21,322 bases of DNA. Origin: a virus. The stretch is from positions 37,959-59,280 of IMG/VR virus record IMGVR_UViG_3300030104_004863, one strand, 5' to 3'. The number at the start of each line of letters is the position of its first letter. Position 1 is the first letter of the stretch. The notes under the pieces were generated by a model. That model had not been told where the DNA came from. It searched no databases and saw only the letters and a list, made by a program, of their open reading frames with translations. Made by a program: the position numbers and the translations under genes. Below are positions 3,001 through 12,992 of the stretch, one piece after another.

Positions 3001-3796
3001 CTGCAGTACCGGTAGTGTCTTGATTCAATGTACCAACAGCAAAATCTAAAGTACCATCGCCATCCTCATAAGTTACTGTAATATCAGTTTCAGTATTGTT
3101 ACTTACCATACCGCCCACTATATCCTGAACTTCCTCAGTTGTTAATTGTGTATTAGCAGTCATATCATCTACAACTAAATCAATTGTTCCGTCTGAATCT
3201 TGATATGTAGCAGATACTCTAGTTTCTGTATTTGAGCTAAACATAGCGCCAACTATATCTTGCACCTGTTCTGTGGATAGCTGAGTGTCTGAAGATGCAA
3301 TTGTTATATTATCGGCATCGGTATGTGTAAGAGTTATATTTGATCCAGCTACAAATTTAATATCATCGGTACCACTACCTGCTCCACCTGTGGTATTTCT
3401 TAAAATTATATCATTGCTACTGTCTACAAAAGAAAGTGTAGTTGTGTTTTGAGTGTTAGGTGTAGTTACGGAACCGCCTAAAGCTATTGCCGATCCATTT
3501 ATAGTTATACTTGAATTGGCTAAATCGCTATTAGCAAGTTGACCCGTTATTGACGATGCCCCTAAATCTATAGCTAACTGCTGAGTTCCAGAAATAGTTT
3601 CTCTTACTATACCACCGTTTGTTTTTAATGTTATAGTAGATGCGTCGACTGAAATTTGACCTGAAAAGAATTCTACTAGGTCTGCTAGTTTGAAGTTTTT
3701 TGTGTTGTAATTGTTGAGTCCTACAAAATTGGATCCAGTTAATAAATCTTCTGTAGATATACTGGTATCTCTTTCGTATGTTGAGAGTTTAGCCAT
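1..3796 (-). CDS. Long tail fibre / tail spike protein with C-terminal S74 chaperone domain (3' end outside window)
   Basis: The leftward frame opens at the ATG complementary to 3794-3796 and stays open to the window edge, giving about 1265 codons without a stop. The N-terminus (MAKLSTYERD) is typical of a fibre adaptor. Residues 171-260 are two tandem copies of a 45-residue unit with the core EVQDIVG and NTET. Residues about 450-613 hold many NVAIG / ALG repeats resembling the beta-roll head of YadA-like trimeric adhesins. The rest is low-complexity, Ser/Thr/Gly/Asn-rich shaft. At about residue 1250 the sequence SSKRYKKDIEPID matches the start of the intramolecular chaperone auto-processing domain (peptidase S74), which assists trimerisation and then cleaves itself off; its catalytic residues lie outside the window. 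Role inferred: trimeric receptor-binding fibre. The function class is well supported; the receptor is unknown. Confidence 0.88.
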   Translation of the reverse strand, partial: MAKLSTYERDTSISTEDLLTGSNFVGLNNYNTKNFKLADLVEFFSGQISVDASTITLKTNGGIVRETISGTQQLAIDLGASSITGQLANSDLANSSITINGSAIALGGSVTTPNTQNTTTLSFVDSSNDIILRNTTGGAGSGTDDIKFVAGSNITLTHTDADNITIASSDTQLSTEQVQDIVGAMFSSNTETRVSATYQDSDGTIDLVVDDMTANTQLTTEEVQDIVGGMVSNNTETDITVTYEDGDGTLDFAVGTLNQDTTGTAAKVTVTDSTANTNFPVVFHNESNGLLDDTGALRYNPSTGTLLVPSLSVAGTTTTVDTVTMEAANAIVFEGATPDQHETTLTIEDPTADRTITLPNATGTIALTSQLTSAVSGTQYALPMFATTTTLGDSIISQNAGATQATVAGILDVSSYIQIGSITKILSADTGSIFISSRTAAPGSNDVKNTALGINALNSLANTSGAFGDENVAIGFKALEDTTTGYYNTVIGSQAGLQFTTAHSNVAIGYKCLDAMTVNSGNVAVGSNALGELSSTDVNDSDGNVAIGSNASGNRVTGAFNIHIGASAAYQKTSGDGCIYIGYNTSSGVGTPDKEIVIGDQAPGNGSNTITLGASSSTDFFGGQNGINIGSVTKPWGNLFAANATFTGNVGIGDSAHGTASLTLKNTSQHIRFENNGEFAFVSVLSTGELDIWGHGSDETINFRTGTGSGTVALDITGVNSTFAGSVVIGTSINTGIPFVVQKTTADGFAIGFMRNTNSTNGNGLVIDVNSTGGAYIQDWRQAASSKMRLLQNGNLGINETDSSNKLQISDSTIGTDSTADDSNFIKLTNKDIGTANEVWGLGFSSESGGTDYLGGFVQALGNFASNFNTSLIFGTRGTSGNATERMRISSLGVVSVGTTSPIADPFVSTNQFQQLQVGRSGVMGSYTTSSGETMFSNNIYVGSTHSTFQALDTAANGTAMFLYNDYIAFKIGTTAGNGTVGVAEKMRITSAGQVNISPNNDTSETLRVFRGTGAFASQSISIDAKGGNANIRMIATDTARSTVFHRSSDGGSNFTESIRINNSGATSFYGNVDIFQNNSSSSDFINKNVHGTAVSRFIAQSNGTSQNAQLVSDDANDNAWVGSSTGGLNRVIFKDNTDAFYSGRNFGVGASNPGAISGACTTITFGSTSTTLSGGTIFQANGTNTAAHYFEQDVFRYQNMGAYDHVFFSSNTTELMMIRADGNIKIPLIGVTAGATAIGVDGSGFIRKLSSSKRYKKDIEPIDI
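3017..3286 (-). repeat. Tandem 45-residue repeat inside the tail fibre
   Basis: Two adjacent copies of a 135-nt unit (3286-3152 and 3151-3017) encode residues 171-215 and 216-260. Both read TQL(S/T)TE(Q/E)VQDIVG, then NTET, a TY(Q/E)D element and DG(T)(I/L)D. At the DNA level they have diverged, so this is an old protein-level duplication rather than a recent one. Similar EVQDIVG units occur in fibres of many aquatic phages and probably form repeated shaft or collar modules (inference). Confidence 0.8.
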
Positions 3797-3798
3797 AT

Positions 3799-4029
3799 TT
3801 ATTCTTTTTTAGTTCCTCGGCCCCTGTTGCCTCTATTGGCTCTTATTGATGTGAATTTTTTTGTCTTGTGATCGTAATCTTTGCCCTTAAGGTTCTTACC
3901 TTTCTTTTTAGCTGCTCTACGTTTTCTTTGATTCTCTGCTTTCATTGATCTTCTTCTAGGTGTCATTGCAGTTTTCTTATCTCTTGCTTTTTTAGCAGCT
4001 TTTGCTTTCTTACTGAGTTTTTGTGCCAT
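3799..4029 (-). CDS. Small, extremely basic protein (76 aa)
   Basis: A 76-residue leftward gene whose stop codon lies 2 nt before the tail-fibre ATG, so the two are probably co-transcribed. Well over a third of the residues are Lys or Arg, in runs such as KKAKAAKKARDKK, RRRSMK and KRRAAKKKGK; there are no Cys or hydrophobic segments. This composition suggests nucleic-acid binding, for example a packaged DNA-condensing or RNA-binding protein, or a disordered assembly factor. No catalytic motif is visible and no family can be named with confidence. Upstream is A/T-rich with no Shine-Dalgarno sequence. It is the first leftward gene from the divergent control region. Confidence 0.75.
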   Translation of the reverse strand: MAQKLSKKAKAAKKARDKKTAMTPRRRSMKAENQRKRRAAKKKGKNLKGKDYDHKTKKFTSIRANRGNRGRGTKKE

Positions 4030-4117
4030 ACTTTATTATTACGTGACAACAGGTGTTTATTAAATGTATTATTATTAGCTAGTGTCGTATAGAGGATTAA
4101 TGGGTTACATTACCGTA

Positions 4118-4207
4118 TTTACCTTATATACTACAAACAAAAACAAAAACATTTTACCCCACGGGGGGTATATTTACAATATTTTTACAAAAAGTTTTAC
4201 CTTTTAC
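4118..4207. repeat. Cluster of six TTTAC pentamers in the divergent intergenic region
   Basis: The 250-nt gap 4030-4279 separates the leftward fibre operon from the rightward early array and holds no gene. Within it, TTTAC occurs at 4118, 4153, 4173, 4184, 4196 and 4203, all on the + strand, with a GTAAA at 4242. A rough estimate from base composition is less than one copy per 100 bp. The cluster ends just before the first copy of the ACGAW-N7-GGATAAT element. It may be an array of protein-binding sites or part of a replication origin; the sequence does not decide. Confidence 0.5.
4155..4170. other. GC-rich hairpin in the divergent promoter region
   Basis: TACCCC and GGGGTA form a perfect 6-bp stem around a 4-nt loop (ACGG). 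It is by far the most GC-rich stretch in this otherwise strongly AT-rich gap. It is followed by TATTTACAATATTTTTAC, so it could work as a weak terminator separating the divergent units, or as a regulatory or DNA-structure element. Both functions are inference. Confidence 0.5.
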
Positions 4208-4216
4208 ATACACAAC

Positions 4217-4239
4217 ACGAAGTACTATGGATAATATAA
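4217..4239 (+). promoter_or_regulatory. Two-box element, copy 1 (ACGAA-N7-GGATAATATAA)
   Basis: ACGAA at 4217-4221, seven variable bases, then GGATAATATAA at 4229-4239. It lies 40 nt before the first rightward start codon (4280). It shares GGATAATATAAGTGTAAA with copy 2. Its position at the head of the rightward array suits a promoter. Confidence 0.65.
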
Positions 4240-4279
4240 GTGTAAAAAGTATTAATAATAAACTAAAATTATATAAATT

Positions 4280-4585
4280 ATGAATAAGAATAAATTAAAC
4301 GATGCAATAAGTAAGTTATCTAAAAAAGAATTGTCAGACATCTTTCCTCCAATTCACAGAAATAACTTTGTAGTAAGAGAGAACTGGTATGGTAGAAATC
4401 AAATAATAACTTTTATAAATAATAAAGGTCAACAAATAACTTACAATCACGATGAAGTATTAAAAGTAATGTTACCTAAATTAAAGTTAATGCCTTGTTG
4501 GATTAAAAGAAAGTATTGGTCTCAGTCAACTGACATGCCAAGTAATGTTCGAAATAATGTAATTGAAAGACTAGACTTAGTATAA
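4280..4585 (+). CDS. Hypothetical protein, first gene of the rightward array (101 aa)
   Basis: A 101-residue protein with no recognised family. It is Lys/Asn-rich at the N-terminus (MNKNKLNDAISKLSKKELSD), has a central aromatic stretch (NWYGRNQIITF) and a Trp/Lys-rich C-terminal half (CWIKRKYWSQ). There is no signal peptide or membrane segment. It is the first rightward gene after two-box element copy 1, so it may be made early, as host-takeover proteins often are; that role is inference from position only. A hairpin follows 8 nt after its stop. Confidence 0.75.
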   Translation: MNKNKLNDAISKLSKKELSDIFPPIHRNNFVVRENWYGRNQIITFINNKGQQITYNHDEVLKVMLPKLKLMPCWIKRKYWSQSTDMPSNVRNNVIERLDLV

Positions 4586-4592
4586 TTGCGAA

Positions 4593-4621
4593 ACACCGTC
4601 CAGTGACAGAGGGCAAGGTGT
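4593..4621 (+). other. Stable hairpin directly after the first early gene
   Basis: ACACCGTCC (4593-4601) pairs with GGGC (4611-4614) and GGTGT (4617-4621), giving nine base pairs including one G-T wobble, with a 2-nt AA bulge and a 9-nt loop. It starts 8 nt after the stop codon at 4585. There is no clear U-tract after it, so it is more likely an mRNA-end structure or processing site than a classical intrinsic terminator. It is immediately followed by a 9-bp tandem repeat. Confidence 0.5.
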
Positions 4622-4637
4622 ATAGCATGTATAGCAT
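4620..4637. repeat. Tandem 9-mer (GTATAGCAT x2)
   Basis: Two exact adjacent copies of GTATAGCAT at 4620-4628 and 4629-4637, overlapping the end of the preceding hairpin. No function is evident. Confidence 0.6.
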
Positions 4638-4857
4638 TTACTTTATTTACCGAAAGTATTAAAAAAAGTGTGACAATTGCTCTTTACTATTATAACTTAA
4701 TATACCTAATGTCACATTATTTACTTTATTACATAAGTGTACATAGTGGGTAACATATGTAAACTATTTTACAATAGTAAACAATTTATATACTTTTATT
4801 TTACAAACTTAATACGAAGTGTATTGGATAATATAAGTGTAAATAAATAATAATAAA
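4637..4857. promoter_or_regulatory. AT-rich gap with TTTAC/GTAAA cluster and inverted repeat
   Basis: This stretch has no gene. It holds TTTAC at 4637, 4646, 4683, 4720, 4768 and 4800 and GTAAA at 4759, 4777 and 4839. It also holds a 7-bp inverted repeat, TGTGACA (4669-4675) and TGTCACA (4710-4716), spaced 34 nt apart, and a small CTATT/AATAG hairpin near 4764-4777. Two-box element copy 2 lies at the end. The layout resembles the divergent region upstream of copy 1, so both gaps may be control regions of the same kind, or one may be an origin (inference). Confidence 0.45.
4814..4836 (+). promoter_or_regulatory. Two-box element, copy 2
   Basis: ACGAA at 4814-4818, seven variable bases, GGATAATATAA at 4826-4836. 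It is preceded by ACAAACTTAAT, so the full left box reads TTAATACGAA. It lies 21 nt before the ATG at 4858. The left box contains TAATACGA, identical to the first eight bases of the T7 RNA polymerase promoter. Confidence 0.68.
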
Positions 4858-5004
4858 ATGAAAAGAAAAAAAATATATACCTACGAAGAAAGCAAATTAG
4901 AAAAATTAACTAAAGAAATGTTTGGTGAAAAATATACTTTCAATAAAATGAGTGAAAGAGAAAAAGGTATGATAAAAAATGAGTACAATGATATATATAG
5001 ATAA
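4858..5004 (+). CDS. Hypothetical small protein (48 aa)
   Basis: ATG at 4858 opens a 48-residue frame ending at TAA 5002-5004 (begins MKRKKIYTYEES). It is Lys/Glu-rich, probably helical and soluble, with no known motif. It follows two-box element copy 2 at promoter-like distance and overlaps the next small gene by 17 nt. Its size, position and the absence of a competing frame support it as a real gene of the early array; its function is unknown. Confidence 0.6.
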   Translation: MKRKKIYTYEESKLEKLTKEMFGEKYTFNKMSEREKGMIKNEYNDIYR

Positions 5005-5119
5005 TTACGGAAATAACTTTACTTGGGCAATCTTAAAACAAATGTCAGGTGAATTAACTAGAGTAGATGTACTAGGTATAATTGAAACTCACAAACTAAA
5101 TACGAACTTAACTGGATAA
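4988..5119 (+). CDS. Hypothetical small protein (43 aa), C-terminus encoded by the two-box element
   Basis: ATG at 4988 opens a 43-residue frame (begins MIYIDNYGNN) that ends at TAA 5117-5119. The last nine residues, HKLNTNLTG, are encoded by two-box element copy 3, and the stop codon lies inside the GGATAAT box. The same arrangement (LNTN then G-stop) is seen in the gene at 6057-6254. The family is unknown. A somewhat hydrophobic centre (FTWAILKQM) is visible, too short to call membrane-spanning. Confidence 0.5.
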   Translation: MIYIDNYGNNFTWAILKQMSGELTRVDVLGIIETHKLNTNLTG

Positions 5120-5124
5120 TATAA
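5102..5124 (+). promoter_or_regulatory. Two-box element, copy 3
   Basis: ACGAA at 5102-5106, seven variable bases, GGATAATATAA at 5114-5124, preceded by ACAAACTAAAT. It overlaps the 3' end of the gene at 4988-5119 and lies 12 nt before the ATG at 5137. Confidence 0.68.
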
Positions 5125-5136
5125 TAAATTAATAAT

Positions 5137-5277
5137 ATGAATAAAGAATTTGAAAAATTAATGGAAGAAATAGGTTTCCAAATAACTAAACTAAATGATG
5201 GTACAATTGACAAAAATGATTTTACCAATGCAATCGAAGAAATACACGAATATTTTAATACCACAATAACTATATGA
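5137..5277 (+). CDS. Hypothetical small acidic protein (46 aa)
   Basis: ATG at 5137 opens a 46-residue frame (begins MNKEFEKLMEEIGF) closing at TGA 5275-5277, which overlaps the next start codon as ATGA. It is acidic and predicted helical, with an LNDGTIDKNDFTNAIEEI stretch loosely like a helix-loop-helix; no known domain is assigned. Two-box element copy 3 precedes it, and the ATGA junction suggests translational coupling to the next gene. Confidence 0.6.
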   Translation: MNKEFEKLMEEIGFQITKLNDGTIDKNDFTNAIEEIHEYFNTTITI

Positions 5278-5474
5278 AAGTAAATAATATGAAAGAATTG
5301 CTAGAGTATGTAGCAAATAAAAGGAAAAAACAAGCTCACCAACATTATGAGGTAGCAAAAATATACGGTTCCTGTAGTGGAATGGGTAATAAAAGATACA
5401 GAGTACAACAAAAAAGTACTTTTACTAAAGGTAAATCATATGCCTATAATAAGAAATGGATTTATACAAACTAA
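5274..5474 (+). CDS. Hypothetical basic protein (66 aa)
   Basis: A 66-residue Lys-rich protein with a central YGSCSGMGNKRYRV segment and a basic, Tyr-rich tail. ATG at 5274 overlaps the upstream stop (ATGA); a second in-frame ATG is at 5289. There are no recognised catalytic residues. Its stop codon TAA is the start of the CTAAATACGAA box of two-box element copy 4. The basic charge hints at nucleic-acid binding but nothing firmer. Confidence 0.65.
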   Translation: MKVNNMKELLEYVANKRKKQAHQHYEVAKIYGSCSGMGNKRYRVQQKSTFTKGKSYAYNKKWIYTN

Positions 5475-5476
5475 AT

Positions 5477-5499
5477 ACGAATAAAGATGGATAATAATA
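5477..5499 (+). promoter_or_regulatory. Two-box element, copy 4
   Basis: ACGAA at 5477-5481, seven variable bases, GGATAATAATAAT from 5489, preceded by ACAAACTAAAT. The right box departs from the others after GGATAATA. It lies 2 nt before the preferred ATG at 5502; an earlier in-frame ATG at 5487 falls inside the element. Confidence 0.65.
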
Positions 5500-5501
5500 A
5501 T

Positions 5502-5762
5502 ATGAAATACAGAAATATAAAATATAATTATCACGAATGGAAAACGTTTGACGGTAGATTAGTAACAGGCTATCACTGTGAAGACAAAAAATTACTAAAT
5601 GGTTTAGATACCATATCATTCGGCGCGAAAACCATCAACGAAATGCAAGAATATATCGACGATTATATCGATAATAGACAAGAAAAACTTGATAATCAAG
5701 TGCTAACAGACTCTGCAATGGCAGAATACTATGCCAAATGGAGTACTGCTGGTGAATTTTAA
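5502..5762 (+). CDS. Hypothetical protein (86 aa)
   Basis: The preferred start is ATG 5502 (begins MKYRNIKYNYHEW), because the earlier ATG at 5487 overlaps the conserved element and would add only MDNNN. The 86-residue product has a Trp-containing N-terminal strand region (EWKTFDGRLVTGYHC), then a likely helical acidic region (INEMQEYIDDYIDNRQ) and ends in KWSTAGEF. It looks like a compact soluble phage protein; no family is recognised. Confidence 0.65.
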   Translation: MKYRNIKYNYHEWKTFDGRLVTGYHCEDKKLLNGLDTISFGAKTINEMQEYIDDYIDNRQEKLDNQVLTDSAMAEYYAKWSTAGEF

Positions 5763-5780
5763 TTTTAAATTTTATAAAAA

Positions 5781-5873
5781 ATGAATGATAATAGAAAATT
5801 AAGTGAAATGCAAAAAGCAAATATTATGACTCTTATTACCTTTATAGCAATACTAACATACATTATACTATAA
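5781..5873 (+). CDS. Predicted single-span membrane microprotein (30 aa)
   Basis: ATG at 5781 opens a 30-residue frame: a polar N-terminus (MNDNRKLSEMQKAN) followed by a 16-residue hydrophobic segment (IMTLITFIAILTYIIL) that ends the protein. The TAA at 5871-5873 overlaps the next ATG as TAATG. The design fits a small inner-membrane protein (N-in), such as a lysis or superinfection factor, but nothing identifies the role. It is short, so the gene call is tentative. Confidence 0.5.
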   Translation: MNDNRKLSEMQKANIMTLITFIAILTYIIL

Positions 5874-6064
5874 TGAGAACATTTGACAAATATAAAGTAA
5901 ATTTAAGACAAGTTGGTGACGATATATACTCTTACAGTACTAAAGTCGCAACGATACACCACGATAAGTTAATACAACACGGTTGGTGGAGTGTAACAAC
6001 TCAGAAACATATAAACTATGTTGCAAACGAATTAGGATTAGAAATAGATAAAAGCTATGAGTAA
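5873..6064 (+). CDS. Conserved small phage protein (GWWSVTT motif, 63 aa)
   Basis: A 63-residue protein with GDDIYSYSTKVA, then GWWSVTTQKHINYVANELG. I recognise this pattern (IYSY-TKVA followed by GWWS-TT-KHINYVA-ELG) from small uncharacterised proteins in many phages and prophages, probably a DUF8033-type domain; that name is from memory. The ATG shares an A with the upstream stop (TAATG), and the end overlaps the next start by 8 nt, so it sits in a tightly coupled operon. Molecular function is unknown. Confidence 0.75.
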   Translation: MRTFDKYKVNLRQVGDDIYSYSTKVATIHHDKLIQHGWWSVTTQKHINYVANELGLEIDKSYE

Positions 6065-6254
6065 AATGAAAGAACTAGATAATATCGCTAGCGGAATAGC
6101 GGAAGTAACAAAAGAATTAATGTACGATAGTATACACTGGCAATTGGAAGATTACCCGCAAGAAGGCGATAATTACAATGCTATACATTCTCACGTTATG
6201 AAAAGAGCAATCGAAATGATGTATTACGAACTAAATACGAACGAGGATGGATAA
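6057..6254 (+). CDS. Hypothetical acidic protein (65 aa), C-terminus encoded by the two-box element
   Basis: A 65-residue acidic, probably helical protein (begins MSKMKELDNIASGIAEV) with His and Trp residues in the centre (DSIHWQLEDYPQEGDNYNAIHSHVMKRA). No family is recognised. The ATG at 6057 overlaps the upstream gene by 8 nt (ATGAGTAA). The end, ELNTNEDG-stop, is encoded by two-box element copy 5, with the stop inside GGATAAT, as in the gene at 4988. Confidence 0.65.
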   Translation: MSKMKELDNIASGIAEVTKELMYDSIHWQLEDYPQEGDNYNAIHSHVMKRAIEMMYYELNTNEDG

Positions 6255-6259
6255 TATAA
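6237..6259 (+). promoter_or_regulatory. Two-box element, copy 5
   Basis: ACGAA at 6237-6241, seven variable bases, GGATAATATAA at 6249-6259, preceded by GAACTAAAT. It lies 4 nt before the ATG at 6264 and overlaps the 3' end of the preceding gene. Confidence 0.68.
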
Positions 6260-6263
6260 TTGT

Positions 6264-6455
6264 ATGAAAAAATGTAAATGCAATAATATAATACCAATCG
6301 GTAGAGTCAAGCTAGGTTATAATACCTGCGTTAATTGTAGTACAACACAACAATATAGTTATATACCAATTATCGCAAACAAACAAGTACTCGAAGTGCA
6401 GATAGTTTCACAAGAAGTTTCAGCTTCAGTACATAAAGCTTGGCGAAGAAAATAA
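6264..6455 (+). CDS. Small zinc-ribbon-like phage protein (63 aa)
   Basis: A 63-residue protein with two cysteine pairs, CKC at the N-terminus and CVNC about 16 residues later, suggesting a small zinc ribbon. The second half carries YSYIPIIANK and IVSQEVSASVHKAWRRK, a pattern I recognise from small zinc-ribbon proteins of unknown function in many phages. Zinc binding is inferred. It is the last gene before the non-coding/tRNA segment and is preceded by two-box element copy 5. Confidence 0.75.
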   Translation: MKKCKCNNIIPIGRVKLGYNTCVNCSTTQQYSYIPIIANKQVLEVQIVSQEVSASVHKAWRRK

Positions 6456-6570
6456 TACGGTGAAGAAGAAATAGGAAACAATATATATGTATGTGGTGCC
6501 GACTATCGACCGATATAAGCGAGCGTACGGAAGTGTATTACATATTGAGTCACACTAACTTCTTCATACA
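6456..6570 (+). other. Non-coding leader of the RNA segment
   Basis: There is no convincing gene here. A 23-codon frame from ATG 6487 is the longest and has no recognisable feature. The stretch is locally more GC-rich than the surrounding genes (for example GACTATCGACCGATATAAGC), suggesting it belongs with the structured RNA region that follows, or to a transcribed leader for the tRNAs. Confidence 0.35.
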
Positions 6571-6676
6571 GGTGAGGGGAAGGACGAGTAGCTTAACAGG
6601 TAGATTTGAAGCTGACCACGTGTTGGTTATTTGATGGATTTCTACACATAAGTGAATTGCCTCCCCCACCTTTTTT
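6571..6676 (+). ncRNA. Candidate structured non-coding RNA ending in a U-tract
   Basis: GGTG-A-GGGGA at 6571-6580 pairs perfectly with TCCCCCACC at 6662-6670, nine pairs with one bulged A, and the 3' strand is followed directly by six T residues (6671-6676). Inside the closed loop AGCTT (6600-6604) can pair with AAGCT, or GTAGA with TCTAC, so alternative folds exist. This is the most GC-rich short-range structure on the strand and it ends just 2 nt before tRNA-Asp. It could be a small phage RNA, a leader with an attenuator before the tRNAs, or a decayed tRNA. No known RNA family is recognised. Confidence 0.45.
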
Positions 6677-6678
6677 AA

Positions 6679-6752
6679 GGTTTGGTAGTTCAGTTGGTTA
6701 GAATATCTGCCTGTCACGCAGGGGGTCGCGGGTTCGAGTCCCGTCCAAACCG
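6679..6752 (+). tRNA. tRNA-Asp (GUC)
   Basis: Full cloverleaf: acceptor GGTTTGG pairs perfectly with CCAAACC; anticodon stem TCTGC/GCAGG encloses the loop CTGTCAC, with anticodon GTC; T-arm is GCGGG-TTCGAGT-CCCGT, with one G-T wobble at its base. The discriminator is G and the CCA end is not encoded. The body is nearly identical to ordinary bacterial tRNA-Asp. It likely supplements the host supply for phage late genes (inference). Confidence 0.95.
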
Positions 6753-6763
6753 CAACATTAAAT

Positions 6764-6836
6764 AGCGCTGTAGAGCAGTGGCCAGCTCGCAAGGCTCATA
6801 ACCTTGAGGTCGTCGGTTCGAATCCGGCCAGCGCAA
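6764..6836 (+). tRNA. tRNA-Met (CAU), initiator-like
   Basis: The cloverleaf fits with AGCGCTG as acceptor 5' strand and CAGCGCA as 3' strand, leaving an A1-A72 mismatch above six perfect pairs. The D-stem GAGC/GCTC has A11-U24, the anticodon stem CAAGG/CCTTG encloses CTCATAA (anticodon CAT), and the T-arm is GTCGG-TTCGAAT-CCGGC. An unpaired 1-72 position and A11-U24 are initiator tRNA hallmarks. Only two of the three G-C pairs usual at the base of the initiator anticodon stem are present (29-41 is A-U). CCA is not encoded. An elongator Met or lysidine Ile tRNA remains possible but is less likely. Confidence 0.85.
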
Positions 6837-6848
6837 CTAAGAGACTGT

Positions 6849-7004
6849 ATAAGTGTTATACAAGATGATGATGTTAATGATTTAGATATATACGAAGTTA
6901 ATGGCTTAGCAGAATTACAACTACTTGCTATGGATATAATAGCCATGCAAGATGAAATCGGTAGAATAATCGATAGTAACAAAGAAAGATTAAATACAAA
7001 CTAA
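6849..7004 (+). CDS. Hypothetical acidic protein; start unclear, possibly truncated by the tRNA
   Basis: An open, protein-like frame (VIQDDDVNDLDIYEVNGLAE..., ending NKERLNTN) runs from the end of the tRNA to TAA 7002-7004. It contains no ATG, GTG or TTG before codon MDII at about 6930. The options are an ATA start near 6849 or 6858, a start inside the tRNA gene, a short 24-residue product from the internal ATG, or a gene whose 5' end was replaced when the tRNAs arrived. The tail LNTN is encoded next to two-box element copy 6. The product is acidic and helical; the family is unknown. Confidence 0.4.
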   Translation: MSVIQDDDVNDLDIYEVNGLAELQLLAMDIIAMQDEIGRIIDSNKERLNTN

Positions 7005-7006
7005 AT

Positions 7007-7029
7007 ACGAATTAATACGGATAATATAA
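7007..7029 (+). promoter_or_regulatory. Two-box element, copy 6
   Basis: ACGAA at 7007-7011, seven variable bases, GGATAATATAA at 7019-7029, preceded by ACAAACTAAAT. It lies 5 nt before the ATG at 7035. The upstream gene's stop codon is the TAA in CTAAAT. Confidence 0.68.
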
Positions 7030-7034
7030 ACGAT

Positions 7035-7259
7035 ATGCAAAATTTATACGAACAATTAAAACCGAAAATCAGAAAAGAACTGAACGAAAGCGCTAAAAAA
7101 TATGATAGTGTTAGTAGAATTAAATATACTTTAATGTCTAAAACATTATGGTCTGAACTAAAAGTTTCAACAGTTAAAGATTTAATATTATTTAGTAGTA
7201 TTGATGCTAATAATTTAGGAATTAACGCCATGTTATATGGTAATAATATTATTGACTAA
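7035..7259 (+). CDS. Hypothetical protein (74 aa)
   Basis: A 74-residue protein with a highly charged helical N-terminal half (QLKPKIRKELNESAKKYDSV) and a more hydrophobic C-terminal half (VKDLILFSSIDANNLGINAM). No recognised family, signal peptide or membrane span. It is the first gene after two-box element copy 6 and its stop overlaps the next ATG (TAATG), so it leads a coupled group running to 7949. Confidence 0.65.
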   Translation: MQNLYEQLKPKIRKELNESAKKYDSVSRIKYTLMSKTLWSELKVSTVKDLILFSSIDANNLGINAMLYGNNIID

Positions 7260-7495
7260 TGAGTATTAAAAATACAATAAGGCTAAACGAACAAGCTTAC
7301 GATAAAGTTTATTCTAAAATAAAAGCTATAGAAAACGAAATTAAAAAAGACCAATACAATATTGATAACAATATGGTAACTCCATTTATACCAATGGAAC
7401 TACACTTAGATGTTCTTGATTATAAAAAGCGGGAAAAAAGAGTGTATGAATATATGTTAAATTTAATTAATAAAGAAAGAGAAAATGGCAACTAG
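7259..7495 (+). CDS. Hypothetical helical protein (78 aa)
   Basis: A 78-residue Lys/Glu-rich protein with two likely helices (about residues 8-32 and 50-75) separated by a Pro-containing linker (MVTPFIPMELHLD). The heptad-like pattern suggests a small coiled-coil hairpin. It overlaps the previous stop by one base and the next gene by 11 nt. Function unknown. Confidence 0.65.
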   Translation: MSIKNTIRLNEQAYDKVYSKIKAIENEIKKDQYNIDNNMVTPFIPMELHLDVLDYKKREKRVYEYMLNLINKERENGN

Positions 7496-7949
7496 AAATG
7501 TAACTATGGTAGTACCTATAGAGTTCTACCACGAAAATAAACCTAATCATCCTGACATGTTTAAAGACGTTAGCCGTGTAAATATGTATCTACATCATGA
7601 CGGTTATCCTCAATGGCAAGGTGTACAACTAGCTAATTGGCTAAAAGTTAATGCAAGACAGGATAGTTCCGCATTAGCCGCTCAATTAGTGAGAGATATG
7701 TACTATGACAGTTGCTATTTATATCAAAACCATCAGGTAATTGACCACCATTATACTTATATAATATTTGTGGATAAAGACCCGTTAATACTATGTTATG
7801 ACCAATATTCTTCTCGCGAAGTATTTTGCTATACACCACAACAAGTTATAGATAAATATACAGACGATATGGATTACACGGATTTTGCCGCCGGTAAAAC
7901 TAGATGTGAATATAGCGGTTTAAGAAGCACGCAAAGCTATACAGACTAA
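7485..7949 (+). CDS. Conserved-type phage protein with YLHHDGYP motif (154 aa)
   Basis: A 154-residue protein starting MATRNVTMVVPIEFYHE. Residues 35-42 read YLHHDGYP followed by QWQGVQLANWL. The pattern of a short strand, H-x-DGYP and a helix occurs in small uncharacterised phage proteins that I recognise only by this motif. The C-terminal half has HHYTYIIFVDKDPLILCYD, probably beta strands, and an acidic end. It closes the coupled set that starts at 7035; its stop codon is part of two-box element copy 7. Biochemical role unknown. Confidence 0.7.
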   Translation: MATRNVTMVVPIEFYHENKPNHPDMFKDVSRVNMYLHHDGYPQWQGVQLANWLKVNARQDSSALAAQLVRDMYYDSCYLYQNHQVIDHHYTYIIFVDKDPLILCYDQYSSREVFCYTPQQVIDKYTDDMDYTDFAAGKTRCEYSGLRSTQSYTD

Positions 7950-7951
7950 AT

Positions 7952-7974
7952 ACGATAACAAATGGATAATATAA
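7952..7974 (+). promoter_or_regulatory. Two-box element, copy 7
   Basis: ACGAT at 7952-7956, seven variable bases, GGATAATATAA at 7964-7974, preceded by AGACTAAAT. The only usable ATG of the next gene (7962) overlaps the GG of this copy, unlike the other copies. Confidence 0.65.
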
Positions 7975-8117
7975 ATGAAATAAAAGTTAAATCTCACAAA
8001 GATGGTGAGTCTTATACACTTAAAGAATTATTAGTTAGGATTGAAGAGCTAGAAGATAAACAATGGGAAATTAAATACTTTTTACAAAATCCTAAAAAAT
8101 TAAATGAATTTTTATGA
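7962..8117 (+). CDS. Hypothetical small protein (51 aa)
   Basis: ATG 7962 lies inside two-box element copy 7; the downstream ATG is out of frame and closes after two codons, so 7962 is the only standard start. The 51-residue product (begins MDNINEIKVKSHKDG) is charged, with a probable coiled coil (LKELLVRIEELEDKQWEIKYFL). It ends in ATGA overlap with the next gene. If the element is a promoter with its start point at or after GG, this ORF would have to be translated from upstream transcripts. Confidence 0.55.
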   Translation: MDNINEIKVKSHKDGESYTLKELLVRIEELEDKQWEIKYFLQNPKKLNEFL

Positions 8118-8404
8118 CCGAAAAAGAATATAAAGCACTATATAATCGTATAAAAGAAGATTTGTACGACGAATTTCTAAATCCTGAAACAGCAACTTAT
8201 GGTGCTGATGTCTTACGACATAAGGAAGATAAGCGAACTGGTTTTTTAAGTTCATTTAATTTAGAACCTATCGACGAAAAAGAAATAATAAAAGAAGAAA
8301 TAGAACAGCTTATGTTAGTTATGAAAAAATATGAAGAAAACGAAGAATATGAAAAAGCTGCAATAATGAAAAAAAGAATTATATATTTAAAAAGTAAATT
8401 ATGA
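8114..8404 (+). CDS. Small protein with a UVR-like (UvrB/UvrC) motif (96 aa)
   Basis: A 96-residue acidic protein. The C-terminal 35 residues (EIEQLMLVMKKYEENEEYEKAAIMKKRI, broken here for length, then IYLKSKL) match the UVR helical hairpin pattern: L-x2-M-x-x-A/K-x-E-x-E-x-Y-E-x-A-A-x2-[RK]-x-x-I. In cellular proteins this motif mediates UvrB-UvrC contact and other protein interactions. The N-terminal half (KALYNRIKEDLYDEFLN) is unassigned. The start overlaps the upstream stop (ATGA) and the end overlaps the ligase start, placing it in a ligase operon; a DNA-repair or protein-docking role is inferred. Confidence 0.7.
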   Translation: MTEKEYKALYNRIKEDLYDEFLNPETATYGADVLRHKEDKRTGFLSSFNLEPIDEKEIIKEEIEQLMLVMKKYEENEEYEKAAIMKKRIIYLKSKL

Positions 8405-9249
8405 TAAAACCAATGCTAGCCCACAAGTTTGACATCAACAGAGTTGATTATAACCAACCCGAAGGCTACTACATACAACCAAAGCTCGATGGCATCAGAT
8501 GTTTATTTACTGCTGATGGTGCATACTCGCGTAACAATAAAAAGTTTATGAACCTAAAACATATTGAAATGGCTCTTAAACCTTTCTTTGAACAACAACC
8601 AGATGTAGTACTCGACGGCGAACTATATAATCATAAGTTGAAAAACGATTTTGAAAAGATCGTATCGCTTGTACGAAAGCAAAAGCCAACCGAAGAAGAT
8701 AGACGTAATGCTCAACACCTTATACAGTTTCATGTATACGATTACTTTTCTCAAGATTCTTATTATGAAAAGTATCAAACTAGAATGCACAATTTAGTTT
8801 GTTCTGACATTTATGGGCCTTGTATTAAAATGGTAGAAGCTTATAAAGTAAGAAAACACGATGATTCATTATATTATCATTGGAATGAGTTTCTCTCTAA
8901 CGGTTACGAGGGCTCTATACTCCGTGACGGTAGCGCTTTATATAAGCACGGCCGATCGTACGGTTTAATGAAGTTCAAAGACTTTAGCGACGCAGAAGCA
9001 ACAATTGTGGGCTATGAAATTGGTCAGGGTAAACGAACTGGTACACTTGGCAAGTTCTTAATGATGGATGATGATGGCAATAGATTTGGTTGCCCTCCTG
9101 GTAAAGGTTATAATTATAAAGACCTTGCTAATATGTTAAAAAATATTAATAAATATATTGGCCAGCGAGCTACGTTTACTTATTTTCAAAGAACTAATGC
9201 GGGTAGTTACAGACACCCATTATTTAAATGTATTAGAAATTATGAGTAA
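8401..9249 (+). CDS. ATP-dependent DNA ligase (T7-like, 282 aa)
   Basis: This seals nicks in duplex DNA during replication, through a lysine-AMP intermediate. Motif I is KLDGIR with the predicted adenylated Lys28; motif III-like LDGELY has Glu74; motif IV is YEGSILRD; motif V is LMKFKDF. The C-terminal part (GTLGKFLMMDDDGNRFG... to RHPLFKCIR) fits the OB-fold. At 282 residues it is a minimal two-domain ligase, shorter than T7 ligase (about 359), with nothing before the nucleotidyltransferase domain. The ATG overlaps the upstream stop (ATGA). Assignment to ATP-dependent DNA ligase is secure; host origin versus phage lineage is not examined. Confidence 0.93.
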   Translation: MIKPMLAHKFDINRVDYNQPEGYYIQPKLDGIRCLFTADGAYSRNNKKFMNLKHIEMALKPFFEQQPDVVLDGELYNHKLKNDFEKIVSLVRKQKPTEEDRRNAQHLIQFHVYDYFSQDSYYEKYQTRMHNLVCSDIYGPCIKMVEAYKVRKHDDSLYYHWNEFLSNGYEGSILRDGSALYKHGRSYGLMKFKDFSDAEATIVGYEIGQGKRTGTLGKFLMMDDDGNRFGCPPGKGYNYKDLANMLKNINKYIGQRATFTYFQRTNAGSYRHPLFKCIRNYE

Positions 9250-9352
9250 ATTAATATGGCAATTATACAACGACAATATGATCTCAGAGGAGGTGGCAAA
9301 CCTCTTATTAGACAAATACTATAATAGATTAAACAATAAAAGATATAAATGA
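9242..9352 (+). CDS. Hypothetical microprotein (36 aa)
   Basis: ATG 9242 overlaps the ligase end (ATGAGTAA) and gives a 36-residue product, MSKLIWQLYNDNMISEEVAN..., ending at TGA 9350-9352, which overlaps the next ATG. A longer same-frame reading from 9158 lies within the ligase gene and is disfavoured. The gene contains a GAGGT/ACCTC hairpin near 9288. Overlaps on both sides support translation as part of the operon; function unknown. Confidence 0.55.
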   Translation: MSKLIWQLYNDNMISEEVANLLLDKYYNRLNNKRYK

Positions 9353-9861
9353 ATATATTTTATTTACACGAAGACCCTAATTTAGCTGCAAGCTATGTAT
9401 ATGATAAACATAAAGTTAAAATGATATTAGAGTCTGCTCAAATGCTTTGTACAGCTCATCATGCTTTTAATAATGGTAACAATGTACCTTATAGAAAAGT
9501 TCATTTAAATCATCCGTCAAGTATTTGGGTTCGTGAAAATACACATCATTACTATTGGTTGTATCAACATATGTTAGCCTTAGGTAATGAATATACAAAA
9601 AGATATAATAAAATACATCTAACAATAACTAAATGTGCAGAGGCTTTATTACACCCTCCTAGTGGTATGCCAACTAAAAAGTTTGAGCAACCTCCACAGT
9701 GTATGCCCGACGAACATAAACGTTCCAATGCTATACACGGTTATTGGCGATATTATATTATTGATAAAGCAAAAATAGTAAACAAAAATGAAACACCTTA
9801 TACTTATAACACTATTCCTAAAAGAATTAGTGACCGCTACGGTTTATCATGCGGTAATTGA
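9349..9861 (+). CDS. Conserved phage protein, MNIFYLHEDP / KHKVKMILESAQ family (170 aa)
   Basis: The N-terminus MNIFYLHEDPNLAASYVYDKHKVKM followed by ESAQMLCTAHH, then NHPSSIWVRENTHHYYWLYQHM, is a pattern I recognise from a family present in many large and marine phages. Several conserved His, Lys, Trp and Tyr residues suggest an enzyme. A distant link to pyrimidine-dimer DNA glycosylase-type proteins is possible, and I hold it only as a hypothesis. The C-terminal part has EQPPQCMPDEHKR and YWRYYIIDKAKI. It overlaps the upstream microprotein (ATGA) and follows DNA ligase, consistent with a DNA-metabolism role. Confidence 0.7.
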   Translation: MNIFYLHEDPNLAASYVYDKHKVKMILESAQMLCTAHHAFNNGNNVPYRKVHLNHPSSIWVRENTHHYYWLYQHMLALGNEYTKRYNKIHLTITKCAEALLHPPSGMPTKKFEQPPQCMPDEHKRSNAIHGYWRYYIIDKAKIVNKNETPYTYNTIPKRISDRYGLSCGN

Positions 9862-10138
9862 ACAGACAGACAGTACTCCATTCGTTACTGCCTCAATGAA
9901 ACAAATAAATCCTAATAACCCTGCGGGACATCGCTGGATTGCAGTTTCACGAGACCTTGAAAAGTTGGGCTATACGTTTGGAGCAGTTGTCTGCATTGAA
10001 GGAATAAATAAACAATTTGACGGTGACTGGACTGTACAAGATAGAATGAATAAACGTTTTACTAAACGTATTGATTTTCTTGTTAACGAAGGTACTATGG
10101 GTAAATGGAATAATATAAAAATAGAAATAAATGAGTAA
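9788..10138 (+). CDS. 3D-domain-like (double-psi beta-barrel) protein, possibly secreted
   Basis: The core TATVYHAVIEQTDSTPFVTAS, NPAGHRWIAVSRDL, GAVVCIEGI, then FDGDWTVQDRMNKRFTKRIDFLV resembles the 3D domain of cell-wall-active and RlpA/MltA-like proteins; D-R-M-N-x-R-x-x-x-x-I-D is the conserved end. The long start at 9788 overlaps the upstream gene by 74 nt and yields MKHLILITLFLKELV, which looks like a short signal or membrane segment. The alternative GTG near 9830 starts at VTATVYH and lacks it. If exported, it could act on peptidoglycan during lysis (inference). The start is uncertain; the domain is fairly well supported. Confidence 0.68.
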   Translation: MKHLILITLFLKELVTATVYHAVIEQTDSTPFVTASMKQINPNNPAGHRWIAVSRDLEKLGYTFGAVVCIEGINKQFDGDWTVQDRMNKRFTKRIDFLVNEGTMGKWNNIKIEINE

Positions 10139-10244
10139 AGCATCACAAAATGCAAAGCATTTAATTAAAGTTAATTATATGCAAATAGCAGATAAAATTA
10201 AAAATTTTAGAAAACCGCGAAGAGCGACGAAAGCAAGAAAATAA
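10131..10244 (+). CDS. Hypothetical basic microprotein (37 aa)
   Basis: ATG 10131 overlaps the upstream stop (ATGAGTAA). The 37-residue product (begins MSKASQNAKHLIKVN) becomes strongly basic toward its end (FRKPRRATKARK). The overlap pattern is the same as at other junctions in this operon, supporting translation. The basic tail suggests nucleic-acid or ribosome binding, but no family is known. Confidence 0.5.
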   Translation: MSKASQNAKHLIKVNYMQIADKIKNFRKPRRATKARK

Positions 10245-10262
10245 TTAAATAGTAATAAGCTA

Positions 10263-10889
10263 ATGTCACAGAAAAGAAATATGGCATGGTTAAACAATAA
10301 TAGGATAATATATTATAGAAATCCTATTAGCGATATGCCAACCGAAAGTACTGATCTATATGATTACTACGCAGAAGGTACGCATGAATGCTATAGTTTA
10401 TTTAGAAGTAAAGCAAAGATAACTACTTATAAATCATTAAAATGGCATTTATTAGTTATATATTATTTAAATTATGATGGTAACCCGCATCCATACCAAT
10501 GGTTTAGTAAAGTTGCCAGGTTTATTGCTGATAAAAAAAATGGATTTGTTACGTTTTATATTAAATGGCAAATATTAGAACAAATGATATTAGACGTTAT
10601 ATTAAAAGGTAATGATCCGCCTCGCAATCGTATACGTAAAGTTATATTTAAACCGTATACTATGTTAACATTAAGCGAGAAACTTAGTATTGTAGGCAAA
10701 CTAATAGGTAGAGGTAAGAAGATAGTTGAAGATGATATTTATGAGTGCATGTTAAGTTTAAATAATGAAAAAACAAAAATAACTATTAACAAAATTGCTA
10801 AATCGTTAAATTGTTCAAGCAGAACAATATATCGTAATATGGGCAATCAATTAAAACTTGAAAAAAAATTATTAAACTCTGAACTATGA
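10263..10889 (+). CDS. Helix-turn-helix protein upstream of the sigma factor (208 aa)
   Basis: A 208-residue protein whose C-terminus holds a clear helix-turn-helix: ITINKIAKSLNCSSRTIYRNM at about residues 173-193. The first 170 residues are rich in Tyr, Trp and Ile (WHLLVIYYLNYDG, YQWFSKVARFI) and belong to no family I recognise. An alternative start is ATG 10281 (MAWLN). It overlaps the sigma-factor gene by ATGA, so the two are likely translated together; a role in choosing phage promoters, as repressor, activator or sigma partner, is inferred. No two-box element precedes it. Confidence 0.75.
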   Translation: MSQKRNMAWLNNNRIIYYRNPISDMPTESTDLYDYYAEGTHECYSLFRSKAKITTYKSLKWHLLVIYYLNYDGNPHPYQWFSKVARFIADKKNGFVTFYIKWQILEQMILDVILKGNDPPRNRIRKVIFKPYTMLTLSEKLSIVGKLIGRGKKIVEDDIYECMLSLNNEKTKITINKIAKSLNCSSRTIYRNMGNQLKLEKKLLNSEL

Positions 10890-11650
10890 GAAAATATAAT
10901 ATAGATAACTATGTTAGATATAAAAAAGATGTTGAGATTAAGCTTGACAAAGTAAGAAAACCAGTTGATGGTGACTATACATTTTTAACAGACGAAGAAA
11001 TACAAATTAATTTTTTACCACTGGTTGAAACTTTAGCAAGAAAACAATCAACTTCAGATCAAGCTTCGGGTGTTCTTAGTATAAATGATTTATTGCAAGA
11101 AGGTAATTTAGGTTTATGCGCAGCTGTATCTAAATTAGACAGAACGCTTTTAGCAGAATCTGAGGACCAAGAAAAAACTTTAAAGTCGTTTCTATCAAAA
11201 AGAATTAAAGGCGCAGTTAGAAGAGCCGTGGATATGAATAGAGGCGATGTAAGAATACCTGAACATAAGCTAAACGAAATAAGACGTAACCCTAAAGATG
11301 AAAAGATGGTTGCTATGTTTTTTAATAGTGTATTTTCAAGTATCGATTCAAAACCAAACAATGAAGAAAATATGGCTTATCAGGTTATAGATAAATCTGA
11401 ACCATATAATATAGCTTTACTTAATACATATTTATTATCGTTAATGAGAACTCATTTAACAACTATTCAATACGATGTACTACGTATGAGCTACGGACTA
11501 GACTGCGAAAAATGTTCGGCAAATGACATTGCAGCTAAACTGGGAATCAATGTAAGCACTGCTCATGTTCGCATTTCTCAAATAAAAAGAGATGCCATAC
11601 AACAGCTTATCGATAATGTAGATAGCTCGCAAGTGCTTGATTACCTGTAA
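10886..11650 (+). CDS. Phage-encoded sigma-70-family RNA polymerase sigma factor (254 aa)
   Basis: Region 2 is clear at about residues 43-118: LPLVETLARK, INDLLQEGNLGLCAAVSKLD and FLSKRIKGAVRRAVDMNRG. Region 3 begins VRIPEHKLNEIRR (122-134), and region 4 carries a helix-turn-helix, SANDIAAKLGINVSTAHVRISQIK (about residues 213-236). There is no region 1. At 254 residues it is an alternative-type sigma, which would redirect the host core RNA polymerase to phage promoters. The middle segment (about 140-175) is poorly conserved. It follows an HTH gene and is followed by a terminator-like hairpin, making a two-gene regulatory unit. Which promoters it reads is unknown; the two-box element is a candidate. 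Confidence 0.88.
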   Translation: MRKYNIDNYVRYKKDVEIKLDKVRKPVDGDYTFLTDEEIQINFLPLVETLARKQSTSDQASGVLSINDLLQEGNLGLCAAVSKLDRTLLAESEDQEKTLKSFLSKRIKGAVRRAVDMNRGDVRIPEHKLNEIRRNPKDEKMVAMFFNSVFSSIDSKPNNEENMAYQVIDKSEPYNIALLNTYLLSLMRTHLTTIQYDVLRMSYGLDCEKCSANDIAAKLGINVSTAHVRISQIKRDAIQQLIDNVDSSQVLDYL

Positions 11651-11653
11651 GTT

Positions 11654-11684
11654 ACGGTGAAAAAAACCGTTTAAGTTTAATTTA
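11654..11684 (+). terminator. Terminator-like hairpin after the sigma factor gene
   Basis: ACGGT (11654-11658) and ACCGT (11666-11670) form a 5-bp stem around a 7-nt A-rich loop, followed by a T-rich stretch (TTAAGTTTAATTT). It sits just after the sigma stop codon (11648-11650) in one of the few true intergenic gaps on this strand. The stem is short, so termination may be partial. Confidence 0.5.
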
Positions 11685-11704
11685 TTTTATGTAATTATAT
11701 TATT

Positions 11705-12250
11705 ATGACCATAAACCAAAAGCTGGCAACAATCCAGACAAAATTTAAATCGAAGAAAAGTAGATTTAACGCATTCGGCAAATATAACTTCAGATCAGCC
11801 GAAGACATTCTCGAAGCAATTAAACCCTATCTTTTACAGTTAGGAGTATCAGTAAGGATTAAAGAAAAATTAATCTCACCTGAGCCTATGCCTATATTGC
11901 AAAGTACTGCAATTATTAAAGATGAAAAAGGTATGGAATTGAAAGCTACAGCATTAGTAGGTGTAGACTTAAATCAGAAGGGTATGCAAACTCCACAACA
12001 GTTTGGAAGCGCATCGAGTTATGGGAAGAAGTATGCGTTGGGTAATCTATTATTAATAGATGATACTCAAGATAGCGACGCTACAAATGATCACAGTAAA
12101 AAGAAATTCACAGCTCCAAAATCAATTAAGCCAAAGCTTAATGATATACAAAAAGCCGTAGACTATATTAAAGCTGGCGGCAAAATAAATGCTATAAGAG
12201 CTAAATATGAACTAACTGAAGATCAAGAAAACAAGCTAAACACGATTTAA
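11705..12250 (+). CDS. ERF-family single-strand annealing recombinase (181 aa)
   Basis: ERF proteins anneal complementary single strands in phage recombination and genome circularisation or concatemer repair. The N-terminal part has FGKYNFRSAEDILEAIKPYL; residues 99-120 read QFGSASSYGKKYALGNLLLIDD, followed by TQDSDA, the family hallmark (GSA-x-[ST]-YG-[RK]-[RK]-YAL then IDD-x-D-x-DA). The C-terminal region (LNDIQKAVDYIKAGGKINAIRAKYELTED, split for reading) is a variable small helical domain. It heads the replication block after the terminator-like hairpin and is followed by an exonuclease, the usual SSAP-exonuclease pair. Confidence 0.9.
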   Translation: MTINQKLATIQTKFKSKKSRFNAFGKYNFRSAEDILEAIKPYLLQLGVSVRIKEKLISPEPMPILQSTAIIKDEKGMELKATALVGVDLNQKGMQTPQQFGSASSYGKKYALGNLLLIDDTQDSDATNDHSKKKFTAPKSIKPKLNDIQKAVDYIKAGGKINAIRAKYELTEDQENKLNTI

Positions 12251-12264
12251 TTCGGATAATATGA
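12242..12264 (+). promoter_or_regulatory. Two-box element, copy 8
   Basis: ACGAT at 12242-12246, seven variable bases, GGATAATATG at 12254-12263, preceded by AAGCTAAAC. It overlaps the ERF stop codon (12248-12250), and the exonuclease ATG (12261) lies inside the right box. It is the last and most isolated copy in the window. Confidence 0.62.
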
Positions 12265-12992
12265 ACAAAGAAGCGATTATTGAAAAGCTTAGAGAAGACG
12301 AACATTATTACGGTGAGTTTGGAAAACAATATCTAAGTAATAGTGACATAAGAACTTTGCTTAATAATCCTTTAGCACTTGGAGAACAATCTAAACCAAG
12401 TCCAGCATTTTTAGTTGGAGGTTATTTTCACACAGCTATACTTGAACCAGATAAATTAAAAAAGTATAAAGTTATTGAATCTACAACTAGAAATACTAAA
12501 GCTTATAAAGAAATGTCAGGTGGAGAGTTGTGTTTATTACAACATGAAGTAGACAAGATTGAGCTGATGACACAAAAAATAATGGAAAACGATATATGCC
12601 GCGGACTCATACGCGGTATAGATGTTGAGTATGAGAAGCCAGGTATTGCAGAGCTTGAAGGAGTTATGTGGAAGGGTAAAGCTGATATAGTCAATCACGA
12701 CGAGAAGCTTATAATTGATTTGAAAACAACCAAAGATATTAATTCTTTCAAGCGGTCTGCTTACCGTTGGAACTATGATTCACAAGCATATATTTATAGT
12801 ACATTATTTGGATATGAATTTGTATTCATAGCTATTGATAAAGAAAGTCATCAAATAGCAGTTATGGATTGTTCACCTGATTTTTATGAGTCAGGTAAAG
12901 ACAAGGTTAAAAGAGCAGTAGAAGCTTACGATTTATTCTACAAAACAGATGGATTTGATCCATCACAATATTTTATTAATTTAACACTTTAA
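12261..12992 (+). CDS. PD-(D/E)XK exonuclease, RecE / exonuclease VIII-like (243 aa)
   Basis: This is predicted to resect double-stranded DNA to expose single strands for the ERF protein. It starts with a helical region bearing YLSNSDIRTLLNNP (the 'S-x-SD/S-x-LR-x-L-x-x-P' style of the PDDEXK-like DUF3799 family) and GGYFHTAILEPDK. The catalytic core is GKADIVNHDEKLIIDLKTTKD with Asp142, Asp153 and Lys155, and a helix with SAYRWNYDSQAYIY (Gln important in the family). Length is normal for a phage exonuclease of this type. The pairing with the ERF gene strengthens the call. Polarity and processivity cannot be read from sequence. Confidence 0.87.
   Translation: MNKEAIIEKLREDEHYYGEFGKQYLSNSDIRTLLNNPLALGEQSKPSPAFLVGGYFHTAILEPDKLKKYKVIESTTRNTKAYKEMSGGELCLLQHEVDKIELMTQKIMENDICRGLIRGIDVEYEKPGIAELEGVMWKGKADIVNHDEKLIIDLKTTKDINSFKRSAYRWNYDSQAYIYSTLFGYEFVFIAIDKESHQIAVMDCSPDFYESGKDKVKRAVEAYDLFYKTDGFDPSQYFINLTL

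Follow-up and report, generated by a model that had tools for sequence, protein, structure and literature searches.

The middle promoters of phage T4, which uses the host sigma-70, combine a MotA box at about −30 with a sigma-70 −10 box. The phage-sigma promoters of phiEco32 and phage 7-11 share the consensus tAATGTAtA (PMC4331800), the sigma-28 (FliA) promoter has the form TAAAGTTT-n11-GCCGATAA (PMC2859248), and the primary promoter of Flavobacterium is made of TTTG and TAnnTTTG at −33/−7 (PMC6847099). Here we report on an element of about 39 base pairs (bp) that occurs eight times in a stretch of 21,322 nucleotides (nt), hereafter the window, which covers positions 37959-59280 of the 59,280-base virus record IMGVR_UViG_3300030104_004863. 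The element comprises a 17-bp left box and, at a fixed distance, a right box containing GATAAT, and its sequence and setting give it a high probability of being the promoter of the virus's early and replication genes. It is likely to be read by a sigma factor that the phage itself encodes, and plausibly by this factor paired with HTH208, a helix-turn-helix (HTH) protein whose gene adjoins that of the sigma factor.

As in phiEco32 and 7-11, a phage sigma factor is predicted here to redirect the host core polymerase to repeated, phage-specific promoters, in a genome with two gene blocks on opposite strands. The sequence is another one, however, and whereas the phage promoters of phiEco32 and 7-11 serve middle and late structural genes, nearly all copies of our element lie on the early/replication strand; the length of the left box and the coupling to an HTH gene are further differences. 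In layout the element resembles T4 middle promoters, with an activator box (here a putative one) in place of the −35 region, a −10 box at fixed spacing and early or middle genes downstream, but in the present case the phage supplies its own sigma factor and the −10 box is GATAAT, not TATAAT. By profile, sigma-28 is the closest solved relative of the phage factor, and GATAA is found in both −10 boxes. The three bases before GATAA are nevertheless GCC in the sigma-28 −10 box, against any base, a pyrimidine and G/A/C here; at −35, where sigma-28 has TAAAGTTT and an 11-nt spacer, the element has ACAAACTAAATACGA, which matches in CAAA/TAAA only, in a left box about twice as long. Since the remainder of the sigma-28 consensus is missing at both −10 and −35, and GATAA is all that is shared, we considered and rejected the filing of the element under sigma-28 promoters. 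With the T7 promoter it has the string AATACGA in common, and differs from it in the lack of a T7-type polymerase, of an invariant GG, of a start at the GG and of a conserved spacer. Our literature search, which for the most part did not reach subscription journals, found no transcription study of these phages.

Results

Positions within the element are counted from the A of ACGA (position 0). An earlier note on this DNA had described eight plus-strand copies of ACGAW-N7-GGATAAT, and all eight are present and on that strand (Table 1). A scan of the complete record recovered the core eight times in forward orientation, never in reverse and never as a reversed control pattern, while with up to three mismatches there were 10 matches against 1.43 expected in shuffles, none of the 100 shuffles reaching 10. 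The gap between ACGA and GGATAAT is indeed exactly eight bases (W plus N7), but the right box is not a constant GGATAATATAA, reading GGATAATAATA in copy 4 and GGATAATATGA in copy 8; likewise, AATACGA holds for six of the eight copies and gives way to ACACGA in copy 1 and AACACGA in copy 8. The copies had also been placed in gene junctions, but several overlap gene ends, copies 5 and 8 running through the end of the upstream open reading frame (ORF). Starting from the divergence point, they are strung along the plus strand, ahead of small genes and of a run of ligase, HTH, sigma, Erf, exonuclease, SSB-like and primase-helicase genes; structural genes are found on the minus strand in the left part of the record.

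The anatomy of the element was drawn from relatives using hits chosen by the left box alone, as a guard against selection bias. At the same distance downstream, 380 of these 404 hits carry RGATAATA or CGATAATA. The full element can be written TTACAAACTAAATACGA-N7-Y-GGATAATA and then, at position 25, a pyrimidine-purine (Y-R) step. Conservation on the left is not confined to the five bases ACGAW of the first description but extends over the whole of TTACAAACTAAATACGA, from −13 to 3. This box is followed by seven free bases, T or C at position 11, a genome-specific base at 12, GATAATA at 13-19, an AT-rich segment at 20-23, a pyrimidine-rich position 24 and a purine at 25. The distance between the boxes is invariant among relatives, with 367 cores at 8 bp and 0-7 at each other spacing from 2 to 19, and the seven bases of the spacer are not conserved.

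The element is common to hundreds of uncultured relatives. At least 118 IMG/VR stretches match ACTAAATACGA-N8-GGATAATA, and 19 related records (43-71 kb) contain 4-12 copies each, in a single orientation per record. When 11 whole genomes (0.74 Mb) were scanned with a weight matrix, the copies on the replication strand scored 18 to 53 and nothing on the opposite strand reached 8; over all sigma loci, 884 copies lie on the sigma strand versus 7 on the other. Most of the opposite-strand copies inspected are found at the divergence point, close to where the forward series begins, facing outward with an unchanged layout, and those checked by eye show the Y-R step, which is promoter-like behaviour. 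Such outward copies are found at L249:2091, L212:2389, L239:2280 and L254:1239 (all minus strand). In three of these four relatives the copy stands about 230 nt before a gene for a small basic protein similar to that at 3799-4029 (minus strand) of the window, with GGGGCCCGG in the leader.

The position of the start codons bears directly on where transcription would begin. Among 669 copies, the first usable ATG falls exactly at position 25 in 120, versus 3 at position 24 and 6 at position 26, and the remaining first ATGs are spread from 27 to about 66. Copies whose gene begins at another place still have a purine at position 25 in 97% of cases (98% for starts at least 33 nt along); in the latter, 56% have G there, amid AT-rich sequence nearly devoid of G. 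In the non-leaderless set, position 24 is mostly a pyrimidine (T.64, C.10). Moreover, 40% of the far copies carry an unused ATG at 23-25, most often in the form ATGTAA, which it would be odd to keep inside an mRNA leader. Because the ATGs register at 25, position 25 is a purine and unused ATGs occur at 23-25, we predict the transcription start (+1) at position 25, which places GATAAT at −12 to −7 in the pattern expected of a −10 box; about one message in six would then be expected to be leaderless. The arrangement is that of sigma-70-family promoters: the −10 hexamer precedes a purine start by about 7 nt, a pyrimidine comes before the start, and the −35 region holds a second element at constant distance, here the left box at −38 to −22. 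In the window, the predicted starts suit their own genes in six of the eight copies (copies 1-6); the ATG at the predicted start of copy 4 opens an ORF of 86 amino acids (5502-5762), in frame with an upstream ATG at 5487.

These data also bear on whether the element could act in RNA, as a ribosome-binding, translation-control or mRNA processing site. Many copies in relatives do extend over the stop codon of the preceding gene and lie near the following start, and GGA at 12-14 could resemble a Shine-Dalgarno core. The distance from position 25 to the start codon nevertheless ranges from 0 to more than 40 nt, relatives also have copies inside coding sequence and in non-coding gaps, and the unused ATGs of the far copies fit such a site poorly; besides, Flavobacterium mRNAs are described as devoid of Shine-Dalgarno sequences (PMC6847099). 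We hold an RNA-level role to be extremely unlikely. The earlier note, too, had taken the variable distance to the next ATG (0 to 40 nt) as an argument against a ribosome-binding site.

A second proposal had the element read by a single-subunit RNA polymerase of the T7 kind, or by an injected virion polymerase, with initiation at the GG of the right box. AATACGA does resemble the upstream half of the T7 promoter, and polymerases of this kind use compact, repeated, one-strand early promoters. The recognition region of T7, however, reaches less far upstream of the GG than the left box does. The first G of the GG (position 12) is G in 66%, C in 18% and A in 14% of copies, and in many relatives it is swapped genome-wide for A, C or T; since C or A replaces it in a third of the copies, initiation at the GG does not fit, and the start codons register 13 nt further on. 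The T7-type polymerase profile PF00940 was absent from 18 records, which may be incomplete (T7 control, E=1e-109), and neither a DxDGD-type nor a T7 motif-C signature was present in any protein of more than 700 amino acids. A giant virion-type protein of 2.1-3.2 thousand residues, encoded in 11 of 11 genomes (here at G000 3161-9442, also L009:3161-9442, minus strand, outside the window), could in principle hide a divergent polymerase, but its profile gave no polymerase match against the PDB. With nothing found by family search, catalytic signatures or profile, a polymerase of the T7 or virion type was rejected as a candidate, and we consider it very unlikely that the element is its promoter.

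The giant protein has features of its own. It carries an HExxH metallopeptidase-like motif, and in eight genomes a homologous stretch (residues about 820-905 here) weakly resembles sigma region 2; searched against the PDB to E=10, this stretch gives mostly sigma region 2 matches, the best at E=0.009. If injected, the protein could help to start early transcription.

The product of the ORF at 10886-11650 is a genuine sigma-70-family protein. Its profile matches sigma-28/FliA over nearly the full length (E=3e-11) as well as sigma region 2 of many other factors; Pfam regions 2 and 4 are recognised in nine of nine members of the family, the window's own copy scoring below the curated cut-off, and Foldseek relates the phage protein to sigma chains with a probability of 1.00. 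The sigma gene adjoins that of HTH208 in 11 of 11 whole genomes and is present in 25 of 28 motif-bearing records. Of the other three, G041 and G045 were discarded as exceptions, both contigs ending inside the expected sigma region, and the last is a 7.7-kb fragment. Conversely, the element accompanies 136 of the 140 sigma loci that have at least 5 kb upstream, and neither element nor sigma gene occurs in any of 22 terminase-related records, five of which are isolate or complete phage genomes. This co-occurrence lies within one clade and is strong, though not independent, evidence. Together with the geometry and the absence of an alternative, it supports the earlier suggestion that GATAAT is the −10 box of the sigma factor encoded at 10886, which becomes its predicted reader. 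In two relatives the sigma gene is split over two frames (G005:C1:55767-56520 and G008:C1:65743-66500), through an assembly frameshift or a real disruption, and G006 carries two sigma/HTH208 pairs (C1:3695-4444 and 64909-65658), by duplication or by the joining of two related genomes in assembly.

Among isolates, the phages related by their terminase infect Flavobacterium, Cellulophaga, Tenacibaculum and Maribacter, so that the host most likely belongs to Flavobacteriia. As a rule, the host holoenzyme is the first to transcribe early phage genes, and the right box holds TATAAAT-like AT-rich sequence; a host sigma factor as the reader, possibly aided by a phage activator on the left box, had to be weighed. 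GATAATA is however unlike the TTTG / TAnnTTTG of Flavobacterium (PMC6847099), and the element does not have the form of the Bacteroidota primary (sigma-ABfr) promoter; no enrichment of combined host-type −33/−7 promoters was seen ahead of these genes (0-1 hits). With up to two mismatches, the element was found in only 4 of 397 Flavobacteriaceae genomes, once with a broken right box, and hence is no host promoter class; the 22 terminase relatives, from the same host group, lack sigma gene and element alike. A host promoter is, in our judgement, unlikely.

Full-length copies also occur in large chromosomal contigs of three Flavobacteriales metagenome-assembled genomes, with no phage relatives nearby: L476:5169 (minus), L475:6696 (minus), L477:4286 (plus) and L474:10336 (plus). 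Those of two related genomes precede a gene for a short secreted-type protein (MKTKITIxTLLFGFTVNAQ...), and that of the third precedes a protein starting MGILDFFSGKSKREKK, possibly TerB-like as judged by eye. These could be host genes responding to infection, or captured promoters.

A partition of the element between two readers is suggested by genomes in which its halves part company. In at least three of four exceptional sigma loci (L389, L462 and L388), xGATAATA is kept at the same spacing, with the downstream pattern, and the left box is a different one, repeated within each genome: ACAxACAAAATAtaa in L389, ACACGGACTTA in L462 and CGAATTATAATAC in L388. Sigma region 4 is about as conserved in these genomes as in normal ones. 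The C-terminal half of HTH208, in contrast, is unusually divergent in L389 and L462, where one or both of its segments lie under or close to the 5th percentile, and L388 has no recognisable HTH208, its sigma gene directly following the ligase gene. Since the exchange of the left box goes with the divergence or absence of HTH208 while sigma region 4 stays ordinary, the simplest reading is that sigma would recognise GATAAT and HTH208 the left box. A long left box exchanged in this manner might also be expected if the element were an operator bound by a phage regulator, which could be HTH208 in a repressing or activating role, while other promoters drove transcription. An operator, however, has no need of GATAAT at a fixed distance, of a Y-R step or of start codons registered 7 nt after GATAAT, and the right box persists when the left box changes; we find this explanation highly improbable.

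The base at position 12 behaves as a genome-wide dialect, which is what a trans-acting reader would lead one to expect: within-genome agreement is.81, where.45 is expected (z=35.6), and no other position has a z above 7.6. The trees imply about 24-26 switches of this base. When the dialect was predicted from nearest neighbours with 23 protein families, sigma came out best at the two looser cut-offs, by small margins, and the column that told most about the dialect belongs to HTH208, which came second at the loosest cut-off. Taken together, residue covariation, nearest neighbours and changes on the trees are suggestive, not conclusive, of sigma or HTH208 as the reader of the dialect.

Two further features of the record concern other genes. 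The early region holds tRNA-Asp and tRNA-Met genes (6679-6837 of the window, plus strand), the tRNA-Asp being 98% identical over 63 nt to enterobacterial records. A late-gene counterpart of the element was looked for on the structural strand by k-mer enrichment, and the AT-rich TATTATATTATG obtained at two genes adjoining the capsid gene, after terminators, was rejected as a local feature rather than the mark of a regulon. Downstream of the capsid gene, at 19.8 kb of the record (G000, minus strand) and in relatives, a terminator is followed by TTTATTAA...TATTATATTATATTATG directly ahead of the next start codon; in relatives, the same combination also precedes the gene between the portal and capsid genes.

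Table 1 Copies of the predicted promoter element and genes of its candidate readers (window coordinates; position 0 is the A of ACGA).
Feature	Coordinates	Strand	Position 0	Predicted start	Remarks
Promoter element copy 1	4204..4242	+	4217	4242 (G)	next gene ATG 4280, 38-nt leader
Promoter element copy 2	4801..4839	+	4814	4839 (G)	next ATG 4858, 19-nt leader
Promoter element copy 3	5089..5127	+	5102	5127 (A)	next ATG 5137, 10-nt leader
Promoter element copy 4	5464..5502	+	5477	5502 (A of ATG)	predicted leaderless (leader 0)
Promoter element copy 5	6224..6262	+	6237	6262 (G)	next ATG 6264, 2-nt leader; overlaps end of ORF 6057-6254
Promoter element copy 6	6994..7032	+	7007	7032 (G)	next ATG 7035, 3-nt leader
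Promoter element copy 7	7939..7977	+	7952	7977 (G)	ATG 7962 upstream of start; next long ORF from 8114
Promoter element copy 8	12229..12267	+	12242	12267	start 6 nt inside exonuclease ORF (from 12261); weakest of the eight, score 30.1
HTH208	10263..10889	+			208 amino acids, C-terminal helix-turn-helix (HTH_11); proposed left-box reader; 4-nt overlap with sigma gene
Phage sigma-70-family factor	10886..11650	+			has sigma regions 2 and 4; GATAAT box is its proposed target

Discussion

We regard it as probable, on the strength of these sequence patterns, that the element is a phage-sigma promoter used by the host core RNA polymerase, with transcription starting at position 25 and the left box most likely bound by HTH208. 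Of the two hypotheses in the earlier note, the one built on the sigma factor is thus retained and the T7 one abandoned; the partner HTH gene, the length of the left box and its exchange between genomes had escaped notice.

In the mechanism that we propose, host core polymerase carrying the phage sigma factor would recognise GATAAT as a −10 box, and RNA would begin at position 25, which in many cases is already the A of the start codon. The left box, which spans the −35 region and exceeds a sigma −35 element in length, would most likely be bound by HTH208, which may recruit or stabilise the holoenzyme. The predicted promoters stand in series ahead of the small early genes and of the ligase/sigma/recombination/replication run, and it follows from this placement that the sigma factor probably belongs to its own regulon. 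An initial trigger, either a host promoter or an injected factor, would be needed.

Several observations weigh against this reading. An element precedes the ligase gene, but none stands directly in front of the HTH208-sigma pair, so that the model does not account for how sigma would first be made. In copies 7 and 8 the annotated ATG lies slightly upstream of the predicted start, so that these promoters would serve later genes or the gene starts would have been mis-assigned. One relative (L365) has a normal sigma factor and HTH208 and, within 10 kb upstream of its sigma gene, nothing that can be recognised as the element. As to the dialect, no single residue of sigma or HTH208 explains it, and the tree change counts, which fall in the same range on all four trees, do not separate these two proteins from control proteins; in the nearest-neighbour prediction their lead at the loosest cut-off is modest, and under the strictest one both are less prominent.

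It is possible, and we advance this tentatively, that these phages use a two-protein promoter code, in which a sigma factor fixed on GATAAT would be paired with a co-encoded, exchangeable HTH factor reading the 17-bp box. Many messages would start at AUG, and the specificity of the early regulon as a whole could be rewritten by the swapping or loss of one small gene.

For a large group of marine phages, all uncultured, our work predicts where transcription starts and proposes a −10 box, an upstream box and candidate readers, and the motif can serve in practice to flag these phages and their early genes in metagenomes. The exchange of left boxes between close relatives constitutes a natural experiment on the rewiring of a whole regulon. 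Furthermore, it becomes testable how the polymerase of Bacteroidota, hosts with a divergent primary promoter, is taken over by their phages.

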